A stretch of 64,000 nucleotides of DNA. Origin: Bradyrhizobium zhanjiangense. Lineage in GTDB: Bacteria; Pseudomonadota; Alphaproteobacteria; Rhizobiales; Xanthobacteraceae. This document shows positions 4,631-23,576 of this stretch, piece by piece; the first letter of the stretch is position 1; every line of letters begins with the position of its first letter. The translations under genes and the position numbers were made by a program. The notes beneath the pieces are model-generated. The model worked only from the letters and a program-made list of their open reading frames with translations. It did not search any database and had not been told where the DNA came from. The stretch covers positions 496,001 through 560,000 of the forward strand of contig NZ_CP022221.1 of assembly GCF_004114935.1 (NCBI RefSeq), given 5' to 3'.

Positions 4631-4915
4631 TTAGGGCTGGGTCCCAGGGTGGGCGGGGGCCTTTCGCCCCCTGATGGCCGCCCAGATCAGGACGACGCCT
4701 CCGATGCCGACGACCAGTCCCAGGAAGACCAGCGGCGCGATGTCCGAGTCGATCTTGCCCCCGTCGATCACCGAAGCTCCGCCGAAGAGCAAGGCGCAGA
4801 GACCCGGAAGCAGCAGGATCACCCCTGAAATCACCATGAACGCGGTGAGGCAGCCGCTGCGTGGCTCAACGGGCGTCGGGACGGGGGGCAGAACCGGTGG
4901 TGGCGTATCGCTCAT
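4631..4915 (-). CDS. Small two-TM membrane protein, last gene of the lgt-like/radical SAM operon
   Basis: This encodes 94 residues: a Pro-rich N terminus, a hydrophobic segment at about 22-46, a short polar link and a second segment at about 59-81, then a basic tail. I do not recognise the family. The ATG at 4915 overlaps the stop of the radical SAM gene in a 4-base ATGA, which fixes the start and shows translational coupling; a much longer open frame through this region is the shadow of that gene. Its role may be to hold or assist the enzyme at the membrane (inference). Confidence 0.75.
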   Translation of the reverse strand: MSDTPPPVLPPVPTPVEPRSGCLTAFMVISGVILLLPGLCALLFGGASVIDGGKIDSDIAPLVFLGLVVGIGGVVLIWAAIRGRKAPAHPGTQP

Positions 4916-6357
4916 CGTGGTGCCTCCTCGCCCTGCCTTGCCTCGCGATAGGTCTGCCCTTCGAGCCCGGCGCGGATACGACCGATTGCGCCGTTGCGGT
5001 AGAACAGATTGTAGGTGTCGAACGGAATGATCGCCCCCTGCTCCGTCACGAAATGGATGCAGCTGCGCTTGACGTTGCCGACGCAGAAATTGAAGCGATC
5101 GAGAAACTGCACGATGGTGACGCGGAAGACGTTCTCGTAGGTGAGGCCTTGCGGCACCTCGAAGCTCGGCAGGCAGCACAAGAGTTCGCAGACCCGCTCG
5201 CTGGTGTTCAGCGGCCCCGAGGACAGCGAGAACAGATCGACGAATTTCTCCCGCAGCATCGGATATTTCTCCGGGCTTATCGTGTTCGGCATCACGGCGA
5301 CGAGCTGCTCCTGCTGTAACAGCGAGGTCAGCGGCAGCACCTTCTCGCCGTTGCGCAGGCCATAGCCGATCGAGATGCTTTCGGGGTTGCAGGGCAGTGG
5401 GATCATGTCCTTGTCGCCGAACACGCGGGTCTCGACGACGCGCTTGCGGATCTCCGACAGCATGATGCGATCGGTATTCTTGTCGAAATTCTCGTTGCGA
5501 CCGGCGTCCTGCACCGGTTGCAGCGTGACGCCGCGCACGCATGTCCAGGTGAGCGCGTGACGAACGATGTCGCCGATCTCGGCATCGTTGACGCCGCGCT
5601 TGATGGTCGCGACCAGCGTGGTCGAGATGCCGTAATGCTCGAGATTCTCCAGCGCCTGTTGGCGGATTTTTCGCAGGTCCGCGCCGCGCAGATTGATCAG
5701 CGCATCGCGCTGCAGTGAATCGAACTGGAGATAGACCTCCAGCCCGCGCTTGCTCTCGGCGAGCCGCGCCACGAAATCCTTCTCGCGGGCGATGCGCAGG
5801 CCGTTGGTGTTGATCATGACGTGGCGGATCGGGCGGGCGCGCACGGCCTCCAGGATCTCGAAGAAATCCGGGTGCAGCGTCGGCTCGCCGCCGGAGATCT
5901 GCACCAGGTCGGGTTCGCCTTCGCTGGCGACCAGCGCGTCCAGCATCTTCTCGACCGTCGCGAGCGGGGTGAATTTCGTCCGCGCGGGCGAGGAGTCGGC
6001 GAAGCACACCGGGCAGGTGAGATTGCAGTGCTCGGTGATCTCGATCAGTGCTAGGCAGGAATGCTGCTCGTGGTCGGCGCACAGGCCGCAATCATAGGGG
6101 CAGCCGAATTCCGTGCGCTGCTGGAATTGCAGGGGCCGATCGCCGGGCTTGATGAAGTCCTTGCACAGACGCCAATAGGCAGCGTCCGTCGACACCAGCG
6201 TCGATTGCACGCCATGCTGCTTGCAGCGTTTTTCGTACCAGACCTCGTTGCCGAGAATCTGGATCTTGGTCGGCACCAGCTCCAGGCAGGTCTCGCAGAG
6301 AGACTGAGTCTGGCCCCAGAAGATATAGGGACGCGACTTACGCAACGGCGCGTTCAT
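4912..6357 (-). CDS. Radical SAM protein of the MJ0619/tetraether synthase (Tes)-like family
   Basis: This 481-residue protein has the radical SAM cluster motif C111-x3-C115-x2-C118 (CNLTCPVC) and the GGEPTL segment after it. Additional cysteines surround this core: CETC at 21-24 with C45 and H48 (zinc/rubredoxin-like), a C86-C90-C93-C101 set, and later LPCNPE, CELLCC and FCVGNVKRSC motifs. This layout of extra Fe-S sites is that of the archaeal MJ0619 family, whose characterised member Tes joins lipid chains by C-C bond formation; an older label for MJ0619 is a pterin methyltransferase. Function in bacteria is unknown to me. It overlaps the lgt-like gene by 20 bases and the small membrane protein gene by 4. 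Confidence 0.8.
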   Translation of the reverse strand: MNAPLRKSRPYIFWGQTQSLCETCLELVPTKIQILGNEVWYEKRCKQHGVQSTLVSTDAAYWRLCKDFIKPGDRPLQFQQRTEFGCPYDCGLCADHEQHSCLALIEITEHCNLTCPVCFADSSPARTKFTPLATVEKMLDALVASEGEPDLVQISGGEPTLHPDFFEILEAVRARPIRHVMINTNGLRIAREKDFVARLAESKRGLEVYLQFDSLQRDALINLRGADLRKIRQQALENLEHYGISTTLVATIKRGVNDAEIGDIVRHALTWTCVRGVTLQPVQDAGRNENFDKNTDRIMLSEIRKRVVETRVFGDKDMIPLPCNPESISIGYGLRNGEKVLPLTSLLQQEQLVAVMPNTISPEKYPMLREKFVDLFSLSSGPLNTSERVCELLCCLPSFEVPQGLTYENVFRVTIVQFLDRFNFCVGNVKRSCIHFVTEQGAIIPFDTYNLFYRNGAIGRIRAGLEGQTYREARQGEEAPR

Positions 6358-7054
6358 GCCGGGATCTCGCTTTGGGCGCTGTCGCCAGCATGAAGGCGGC
6401 GTAGAGCAGGATGGACAGCGACAGCAGGTGAAACAGCGTGAAGGGGCCGATCAGCGTGCCATAGGGCTTGAGGAATTCCCACAGGAAGCGCTGTGCTCCA
6501 TAATAGACGAGGACAAGATAGAAACCATTGGTGACCACAAAACCGTTTCGGTTCAAGACCGCCAGCGCATAGAGAAGCGCGAACACGCCCATGGCGGCGC
6601 TCTCGTAGAGCTGCACCGGATGGCGAAGGATGCCATCGCCGAAATCATGCCCGAAGGGCAGCCCCGTCGGCGTGCCGTAAGTGAAATCGTCGAGGCCTGC
6701 GAAGTAGCAGCCGAGCCGCCCGACCGCGATCCCGAGCGCCAGCGGCAAGGCAAAACGGGCGCCGGTTCGTACAGCGATGCCCGCGGACCATTTGTAGAGC
6801 TCGATCGCCACGATGCCGCCGGCGAGCGCACCCTCGACCGAGCGCGCAATGCCGCTCTGGCCCGACAGCCACAGATTGACCGACCCGAACAAATAAGCAC
6901 CGAGGCCCGCACCGAACACCAGGGCGGCGACATAGGGCAGCGCGAAAGATTGCGCGGGAAATTCCAGGCGTCGTCGCGACAGCCAGTAGACGGCAGCTGC
7001 CGCCGCCAGCCACGCCGCGATGTCAAAGACGGTGTGAAGGAAAGCCCCGCTCAT
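6338..7054 (-). CDS. Prolipoprotein diacylglyceryl transferase (Lgt)-like membrane protein
   Basis: This 238-residue, about seven-segment membrane protein has Lgt-fold landmarks: GRLG at 112-115, RHPVQLYES from 144, and QRFLWEF near the C terminus corresponding to the Arg-containing Lgt helix. Lgt moves diacylglycerol from phosphatidylglycerol to a prolipoprotein cysteine. Two Lgt features are altered: the HGG-type segment reads VEGALAGG (73-80) with no His, and the GRxxNFxN signature reads GRLGCYFAG. I therefore infer a paralogue with a different substrate, not the housekeeping lgt. It starts the operon, and its 3' end overlaps the radical SAM gene. Confidence 0.75.
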   Translation of the reverse strand: MSGAFLHTVFDIAAWLAAAAAVYWLSRRRLEFPAQSFALPYVAALVFGAGLGAYLFGSVNLWLSGQSGIARSVEGALAGGIVAIELYKWSAGIAVRTGARFALPLALGIAVGRLGCYFAGLDDFTYGTPTGLPFGHDFGDGILRHPVQLYESAAMGVFALLYALAVLNRNGFVVTNGFYLVLVYYGAQRFLWEFLKPYGTLIGPFTLFHLLSLSILLYAAFMLATAPKARSRHERAVA

Positions 7055-21433: not shown

Positions 21434-23576
21434 TTACCGCGGCGGCGCGGTGCCGGGCGGGGGCGGCGGCAGCGAGGCCGTGCCGCCGTTGAGTAGCGGC
21501 GTGATGCGGCGGACGGTGACGCGCCGGTTGATCCGGCTCGGTCCGTCGGTCTGCTCCTTCAGGTACTGCTCGCCGTAGCCCTGCGACGTCAGGTTCTCCG
21601 CGGGTACATTGAACTGCTGCGTTAGCAATTCGGCCGCAGACTGCGCACGGCGGTCCGACAGCGACAGATTGTCGACGTCGTTGCCGACCGCGTCGGTATG
21701 TCCCTCAATCAGGAACACCTCGCGCGGGTTGCGCTGGATCGCCTGGTTGAGGCCGTCGGCGATCACCTGCAGCCGGGCCGCCTGGTCCGGCGGGATGGTC
21801 CACGATCCCGTCTCGAAGTTGATCGTGTTGACGTCGATGCTCGGCATCTGCATGCGAACATTGGGGCTGTAGCGGATCTCGTCGAGCGAGTAACGCCTTT
21901 CGATCCGCTGCACCGGCGGTGCCTGCATGGTCGCGTAGATCACGTCCGGCGACGCCTCCTCAGCATCGACGATGTAGCGATCATAGGGAATGTTCACGAC
22001 CGGCGGCGGCACGTCGACATAGAAGCCGCCGACCGCGCGCGGATCGCGGTAGCTGTTGTCGATGATGACGATCTCGCGCCCGCCGGGATCCCTGCGGATG
22101 CGCCGCAGCAGCGAACCGTCCGCGCCGACCACAGTGATCACCTCGCTGCCGTCGGGACGGACCACGACAGTGCGGGTCTCGCCGCCGACAGTGTCGGTGC
22201 GGATGTCGCGGGCGCCGTAGCGGAAGCGATAGAGATCGTTGCCGCGGACATAGGCCTGCCCACCCGGATCGCGGATGATGATGCGGTCGGGTTCGGTGTA
22301 GACGGTGCGGCCGCCTTCGACGACCTCGCGCCGCTGGTTGTGGAGGTCGGCGATGGTGGCGCCGATCACCGCGCCGGCCACCACGCCTGCACCGACCGCG
22401 AGCGGCGTCAGGTCACGCTGCGGCGGACGCGGCGGTGGCGGCAAGGGTGCTGCGACCGTCGGTGCGGCCCGGAAGGCTGGCGCAACCGTGGGCGGAGCGT
22501 ACTGCGCCCGGTTCGGCGGCGGCGCTGCGGCCGGCGTGCCGGGCACGACGGTCGGTGCTGCTGCGCCGGCTGGAGCCGGAGGCCGAGGCGGGAGGCCGCC
22601 GGCCTGGGGCGGCGCAGCCGGAGTTCCGGCAGCGGGCGCGCCCGCAGGCGGCGTCCCACCCTGAGGGCCAGGGGTCGGCGTCGCGCCCGGGGTTGCGCCG
22701 GGAGCAGGCGTCGGTGCTGCACCGGGACGTCCGGGCGGCGGCGTCGGCGTGCCGCCACCTGGTGCCGGCGTGGCCGTTGGAGCCGGCGACGGTGATCCTG
22801 CAGCCGGGGCGCGCCGGGACGTCCGCCGGGCGGCGGCGCGCCCGGGCGGCCCGGCGGCGGAGCCGCGGGCGTGCTGCCGGGGGCGGGGGTCGCAGTCGGC
22901 GCGGGAGTCGGTGTCGGTGTGGTCGCCGGGGCAGGAGCGCCCGGACGAGCCGTGGGCGCTGCTGCCGGTGCAGGGGGTGTTGCCGTGGGCGCAGGCGCGG
23001 GCCGCCCTGCGGGACCCGCTGCCGGGGGCGGCGGCGTCGGAGTTGGGCGAGCCGCAGGCGGCGGTGGTGTGGGCGCGTGTTGCTGCGGAGCCGCGGCCGG
23101 CGGCGAAGGCTGCTTCGCGGCAGGCGGCGGGGTGGCGGCGTGGGAGACGGACGCGCTGCAGGCGGTGCCGGAGGAGGCGGCGTCGGCGCATGCTGCTGCG
23201 GGGCCGCAGCCGGCGGCGGTGAAGGCTGCTTCGGTGCGGCAGGCGGCGGAGGTGGCGGCGGCGGAGCCGGACGGGCCGCAGGTGGCGGCGACGGCGGTGG
23301 CGGCGTTGCCGGGCGCGGCGGTGCGGCCGCCGGCGGAGGCGCGGCGGGCGGATGCGGCGGTGCAGCCGCAGGCGGCGGTGTGGTCGGGCGCGCGGGCGGC
23401 GCGGCCGCTGGCGGTCCCTTCGGCGGCTGCTTCGGTTTTCCGTCAGGGCCCGTCTCTTGTGGCTGGGCCTGTGCGACGACGAGCGGCGGCGCACTTTGCG
23501 CATGCGATGCGGAGCTTGCGAATTGCATCGCGGTCAGAGCCGTCGTTGCAAGCAGCACGAAACGAAGGTTGGTCAT
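21434..23576 (-). CDS. OmpA-family outer-membrane protein with Pro-rich linker, two apparent frameshifts
   Basis: The N terminus (start 23576) has a signal peptide ending SSASHA, then a long Pro/Ala-rich region. The C terminus has an OmpA peptidoglycan-binding domain (IEGHTDAVGN, LSDRRAQSAAELL, INRRVTV). These lie in different frames. The Pro-rich reading moves to a second frame near 23130 and a third near 22807, each at a GGGG run on the plus strand where one more G would restore the frame. With both corrections the product is 714 residues without a stop. It may be sequencing error in homopolymers, slippage, or real loss. The role would be anchoring the outer membrane to peptidoglycan. Confidence 0.75.

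Follow-up and report, generated by a model that had tools for sequence, protein, structure and literature searches.

Three tightly coupled genes, encoding an Lgt-like membrane protein, a Tes-fold radical SAM enzyme and a small two-TM protein with a conserved cysteine, look like an undescribed route by which membrane proteins receive lipid modifications. The reading developed here, which we judge about evenly poised between right and wrong, is that the operon is a dedicated lipidation system for membrane proteins in which the small cysteine protein or proteins would be the substrate. All three genes lie on the minus strand of the window (the whole stretch of DNA analysed, 64,000 nucleotides, G000:C1:496001-560000 of a 9.34 Mb genome): P0002, the Lgt-like protein of 238 aa with a Pfam LGT match, at 6338..7054 (-); P0001, the radical SAM enzyme of 481 aa, at 4912..6357 (-); and P0003, the small “GxC” protein of 94 aa, at 4631..4915 (-). 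The overlaps of 20 bases (lgt-like/radical SAM) and 4 bases (radical SAM/small protein) are as described in the initial annotation. What that annotation overlooked looks like the most informative part, namely the small protein, which is conserved, often multi-copy, cysteine-bearing and substrate-like. Elsewhere in the window, positions 22250-23500 are of ~74–83% GC with GCG-rich tandem repeats, and the long ORF in this part is perhaps spurious or of low complexity.

The nearest proteins and loci are from Bradyrhizobium. Of 80 named loci, 78 have the lgt-like gene directly upstream of the radical SAM gene, and the other two (L067 and L083) start at a contig edge; an lgt-like gene also accompanies the radical SAM gene in all 17 distant loci, where Lgt-like identity is 51–68% and where five loci (L138, L140, L147, L148 and L150) have a gap of 177–795 bases between the two genes. 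Because the order is kept in both sets, the pairing is not chance, and the conserved arrangement envisaged initially is indeed found across genomes. Among 36 congeners, the two genes occur together in the same 12 and neither occurs in the other 24. Beside PhoD, four congeners without the system lack all three genes between PhoD and TypA. Two of these four (L182 and L183) have genes for a Crp-type regulator and a response-regulator-like protein at this place, with Pfam assignments for one of the two loci. Additionally, radical SAM genes of the B12-binding type lie near the operon on its upstream side in L076, L147 and L148 (cluster c14; Pfam), and an in-frame stop breaks the radical SAM frame in L143 (G576), a locus whose other two genes of the operon seem intact.

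P0001 has the fold of Tes over 408 residues, and the solved structures closest to it by sequence are those of Tes (7tol/7tom, E 3.3e-58). Pfam places Radical_SAM (E 9e-22) and Zn_ribbon_HMPTM (E 9e-15) on it. The best NCBIfam match is TrsS (NF045646), with 300 bits against a curated cut-off of 490, and Tes (NF045702) scores 257 bits against a cut-off of 450; the description of the enzyme as Tes-like thus stands for the fold and several metal sites, the scores lying below both family cut-offs. Tes has a rubredoxin-like site C9X2C12X20C33X2H36, an N-terminal cluster on C73, C77, C80 and a histidine, and a CX3CX2C SAM cluster (accessible part of PMC9433317). All of these ligands align in P0001 and are invariant in 25 of 25 members of its clade: the rubredoxin-like site as C21-X2-C24-X20-C45-X2-H48 (6214..6297, -), with the spacing of Tes; the N-terminal cluster site as C86, C90, C93 and H96 (6055..6102, -), aligned with Tes C73/C77/C80/H83 and accompanied by invariant H99 and C101; and the SAM cluster as C111, C115 and C118 (6004..6027, -).

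At the C-terminal end, the Tes cluster site is not reproduced. Since C455, C456 and C470 are conserved in TrsS-like, actinobacterial and L153 proteins, we take them to be the cysteine ligands of this cluster in Tes, an assignment made from the alignment. In the clade, the C455 place is Ser (25/25; S432 in P0001) and the C470 place Asp or Glu (25/25; D447 in P0001), and C433 (5059..5061, -; 25/25) aligns with C456, so that two of the three putative ligands are lost and the view that all Tes sites are kept is not supported. In Tes, a labile Met439 lies near Tyr459 and a cluster sulfur holds the carbon intermediate; the variants M439A and Y459F/L stayed active (Lloyd 2022, accessible part of PMC9433317). 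P0001 has Val and Phe at these two places. Cysteines found in all 25 clade members and absent from Tes are C273 and the pair C394-C395 (5173..5178, -), the latter in a region of low model confidence, and C323 is common to the TrsS-like and actinobacterial proteins and not found in Tes. The auxiliary cluster may, as far as the alignment can suggest, persist with new ligands. With the ligands changed, the chemistry of Tes cannot be assumed for P0001.

Ahead of its C-terminal domain, P0001 is ~30 residues shorter than Tes, probably where the second lipid pocket of Tes lies. This bears on the alternative of a membrane-lipid synthase, the reading of the initial annotation, in which the radical SAM enzyme would couple or alter free phospholipid tails, the Lgt-like protein would shuttle glycerolipid groups and the small protein would be an anchor or subunit. 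It draws on the extent of the Tes fold and on the brGDGT role proposed for bacterial Tes homologues (accessible part of PMC8941075), but the shortened stretch speaks against it, and a mere anchor would need neither a near-invariant cysteine nor tandem fast-evolving copies nor a periplasmic position (see below); we consider it unlikely.

In the tree of the radical SAM relatives, the P0001 clade comprises 25 rows with support 100/98. The TrsS-like rows (our own grouping of radical SAM-plus-methyltransferase relatives, six in the tree) group with Tes, with support 95/87; they score 320–353 bits against the TrsS model, below its cut-off of 490, and none is therefore a proven TrsS. The actinobacterial proteins and L153 come together on long branches. 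The Lgt/GxC context thus appears on two of the three branches, through either ancestry or convergence. No methyltransferase gene lies beside P0001, which thus does not have the TrsS-like neighbourhood; one lies beside the radical SAM gene in L002/L152, L155, L156, L161 and L162. A second Tes/TrsS-like radical SAM gene, G000:C1:1789690-1791114 (L002, L152), has a methyltransferase gene after it and the gene of a VKOR-family membrane protein (Pfam) before it.

The small protein P0003 falls into no Pfam family at cut-off, and a direct similarity search with it gave relatives in close loci only; the distant small proteins were found by reading the ORFs around the lgt-like/radical SAM pair. The holin model Phage_holin_3_6 matches 8 of 15 small proteins weakly (best E 4.7e-4), so that an unrelated role as a two-helix protein is conceivable. 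All 17 distant loci, and Persicobacter too, have a small membrane GxC protein next to the pair, and 78 of the 80 named loci have a small ORF with a helix-end cysteine (GxC in 76). L068, one of the two others, ends at the radical SAM gene; L082 is a real miss, with ~1.6 kb of downstream sequence present and no small protein in it. The small-protein genes are mostly downstream of the radical SAM gene, upstream of lgt in L148-L150, with one additional gene between lgt and the radical SAM gene in L148. All three actinobacterial plasmid loci (Nonomuraea, M. branderi and M. avium; radical SAM identity 33–34%) carry lgt-like and radical SAM genes together with small cysteine membrane proteins, which end in G-x-C-T-G-[LI]-N-P. 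Near the operon, 20 of 24 two-TM ORFs have GxC within a TM, compared with 0 of 8 elsewhere (same-strand two-TM ORFs of 50–150 aa from the same 18 loci; Fisher p 4.7e-5). With eight of the 80 named loci (L082 among them) left out by hand, the 72 counted have one (29), two (31), three (11) or four (1) copies. Median identities to the window proteins over 69 loci are 92% for the radical SAM enzyme, 85% for the Lgt-like protein and 59% for the small protein, the fastest-evolving of the three.

The motif G38-L39-C40 of P0003 (4796..4804, -) lies where TM1 is predicted to reach the periplasm, as judged from a family-wide topology count. G31, G38, C40 and G73 are invariant in an alignment of 15 diverse small proteins (A4). 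A cysteine follows 14 uncharged residues in 166 of 170 small ORFs, as GxC in 133 and without glycine at -2 in 33; one Rhodoplanes copy has no helix-end cysteine. The median distance from the cysteine back to the closest upstream charge is 21 residues. Of these 166 ORFs, 120 have a net positive flank before the helix and 7 a negative one, and the flank after the cysteine is negative in 123 ORFs and positive in 15. By the positive-inside rule, positive flanks of membrane helices face the cytoplasm, and the charge pattern therefore puts the cysteine at the helix end that faces the periplasm, which is also the side of Lgt activity. A cysteine in a membrane helix could also fit a subunit or redox partner; a protein that is multi-copy and fast-evolving yet conserved at Cys and Gly looks, we believe, like a substrate.

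Peptide-modifying systems, too, have a small, often multi-copy, variable protein beside a radical SAM gene, and this likeness, together with the enrichment of GxC (20/24 vs 0/8), is what recommends a RiPP-like maturation, in which the radical SAM enzyme would alter the peptide of the small protein, for example at the cysteine, and the Lgt-like protein would anchor or present it. However, the fold of P0001 is that of Tes, Pfam finds no peptide-recognition domain on it, and the cysteine faces away from the cytoplasm, beyond the reach of a cytosolic radical enzyme, which makes this alternative quite improbable.

P0002 matches Pfam LGT with E 4.2e-16 (59.5 bits, cut-off 24.9) and has the Lgt fold, in agreement with the initial annotation; it scores 24 bits against the Lgt model TIGR00544, for which the curated score is 118.9. 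A canonical lgt is carried elsewhere in the host genome (241.8 bits). Equivalents of Lgt R143, Y235 and R239 are invariant in all 23 Lgt-like partners, R143 and R239 corresponding to R113 and R189 of P0002, and the E243 equivalent is kept as E in 21, with D in the other 2. The place of R246 is Lys, and that of N146 Cys, in 23/23. H103, essential in E. coli Lgt (accessible part of PMC4728403), is absent from all 23, the place being E (8), V (6), A (5), L (3) or I (1); this loss counts against thiol transfer by Lgt's own mechanism. H103 is missing from the Bacteroidota and actinobacterial partners as well, which likewise carry Cys in place of N146; the L153 protein has this Cys, but Lys where Lgt has R143, and it contains no HP motif. 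The lost H103 and the uniform Cys might suggest a degenerate, non-catalytic Lgt-like partner with the small protein as a redox or electron-donor subunit of the radical SAM enzyme, but invariant R143, R239 and Y235 equivalents are not expected under drift and a single cysteine is a poor electron carrier, so that we regard this as very unlikely.

In the lipidation system that we favour, the small membrane protein or proteins, with a fixed cysteine at the periplasmic helix end, would be the substrate. The Lgt-like enzyme, which has the catalytic Arg/Tyr/Glu of Lgt, would move a glycerolipid group onto the cysteine thiol, and the lipidated protein would remain uncleaved in the membrane. At the cytoplasmic face, the Tes-fold radical SAM enzyme would abstract H from acyl tails held in a lipid tunnel and alter them, through C-C coupling or some other reaction at an sp3 carbon, either before transfer or on the anchored lipid. 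What the analysis establishes are the gene linkage and co-occurrence, the folds, the conserved residues and, from the charge pattern, the place of the cysteine; the substrate role, the thiol lipidation, the order of the steps and the radical chemistry are deductions from these, and the missing H103 and the changed C-terminal cluster weigh against them. A more specific and rather improbable version is a bilayer-spanning staple, in which the Lgt paralogue would lipidate an uncleaved TM cysteine and the radical SAM enzyme would weld the lipid tail to a lipid of the opposite leaflet. The lipid-related role given in the initial annotation is still the likeliest reading, with both enzymes below NCBIfam cut-offs; of its hopanoid idea, the genome does contain a hopene cyclase, ~6 Mb away and with no visible link to the locus.

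Clade-type matches (at least 52% identity) occur in 2 of 288 other genomes of the class, 13 of 296 of the order (a 14th match, at 36%, being TrsS-like) and 13 of 396 of the phylum, the order and phylum sets having six positive genomes in common; in the genus, 13 of 37 genomes have the radical SAM gene, the window's own genome counted. Among the best 120 of at least 8000 candidates in a search with the Persicobacter protein, the named ones are Bacteroidota (Flavobacterium, Tenacibaculum, Saprospiraceae and Flammeovirga, with others, among the matches listed), a phylum whose gene neighbourhood is known from one locus, Persicobacter. Radical SAM matches were found in nine plasmid records, of which eight were examined (H8 left out): four have the Lgt-like and GxC proteins, and the other four a radical SAM and a methyltransferase gene, with neither partner in the stretch shown. 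The mycobacterial plasmids L160 and L163 carry lgt-like, two GxC membrane protein and radical SAM genes, and their radical SAM proteins lack the N-terminal cluster cysteines and keep the H99 and C101 equivalents. A divergent version is found in another alphaproteobacterium (L153, G169; radical SAM identity 29%), in the order two TPM-domain proteins, radical SAM, two GTC small membrane proteins, Lgt-like and an ICMT-family protein (Pfam).

Zeng 2022 listed 456 bacterial Tes homologues and proposed brGDGT synthesis for them (accessible part of PMC8941075), and a 2025 Black Sea study gives their function as unconfirmed (accessible part of PMC11868695). That nothing is established was therefore nearly right: the accessible parts of PMC8941075 and PMC9433317 mention bacterial Tes homologues, function unproven, and name no Lgt-like or small-protein partner. 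No description of an Lgt/radical SAM/small-protein system was found in the open-licence literature. Bacterial Tes homologues serve as a guide to which bacteria make membrane-spanning lipids; since the P0001 clade comes with a constant set of partners, such predictions need testing before they are extended to it. The 94-residue protein with one candidate cysteine is a testable candidate substrate and, if the proposal is true, the operon would represent a second bacterial protein-lipidation route, apart from the lipobox route, in at least three phyla.

Compared with Tes/GDGT-MAS (MJ0619; 7tol, 7tom), P0001 differs by C455 to Ser, C470 to Asp/Glu, M439 to Val and Y459 to Phe, has the additional C394-C395 and C323 as well as H99 and C101, which are not in Tes, and comes with Lgt-like and small cysteine partners. 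The TrsS-like relatives have H99, C101 and C323 in common with P0001, whereas they keep the C455/C470 equivalents and no Lgt-like or GxC partner was seen with them. Lgt (5azb) and the Lgt-like partners are alike in fold and in the R143, Y235 and R239 equivalents, with E243 in 21/23; they differ in H103, N146 to Cys and R246 to Lys (23/23). Finally, the small proteins resemble lipobox prolipoproteins in their positive flank, hydrophobic helix and periplasmic-end cysteine, but mostly have Gly at -2 and a free residue at -1. None of the 166 small ORFs fits the lipobox [LVI][ASTVI][GAS]C (consensus from the accessible part of PMC4728403), so that the usual lipoprotein maturation, cleavage included, is not expected for them, and, as a second TM usually follows the cysteine, they are probably not cleaved.
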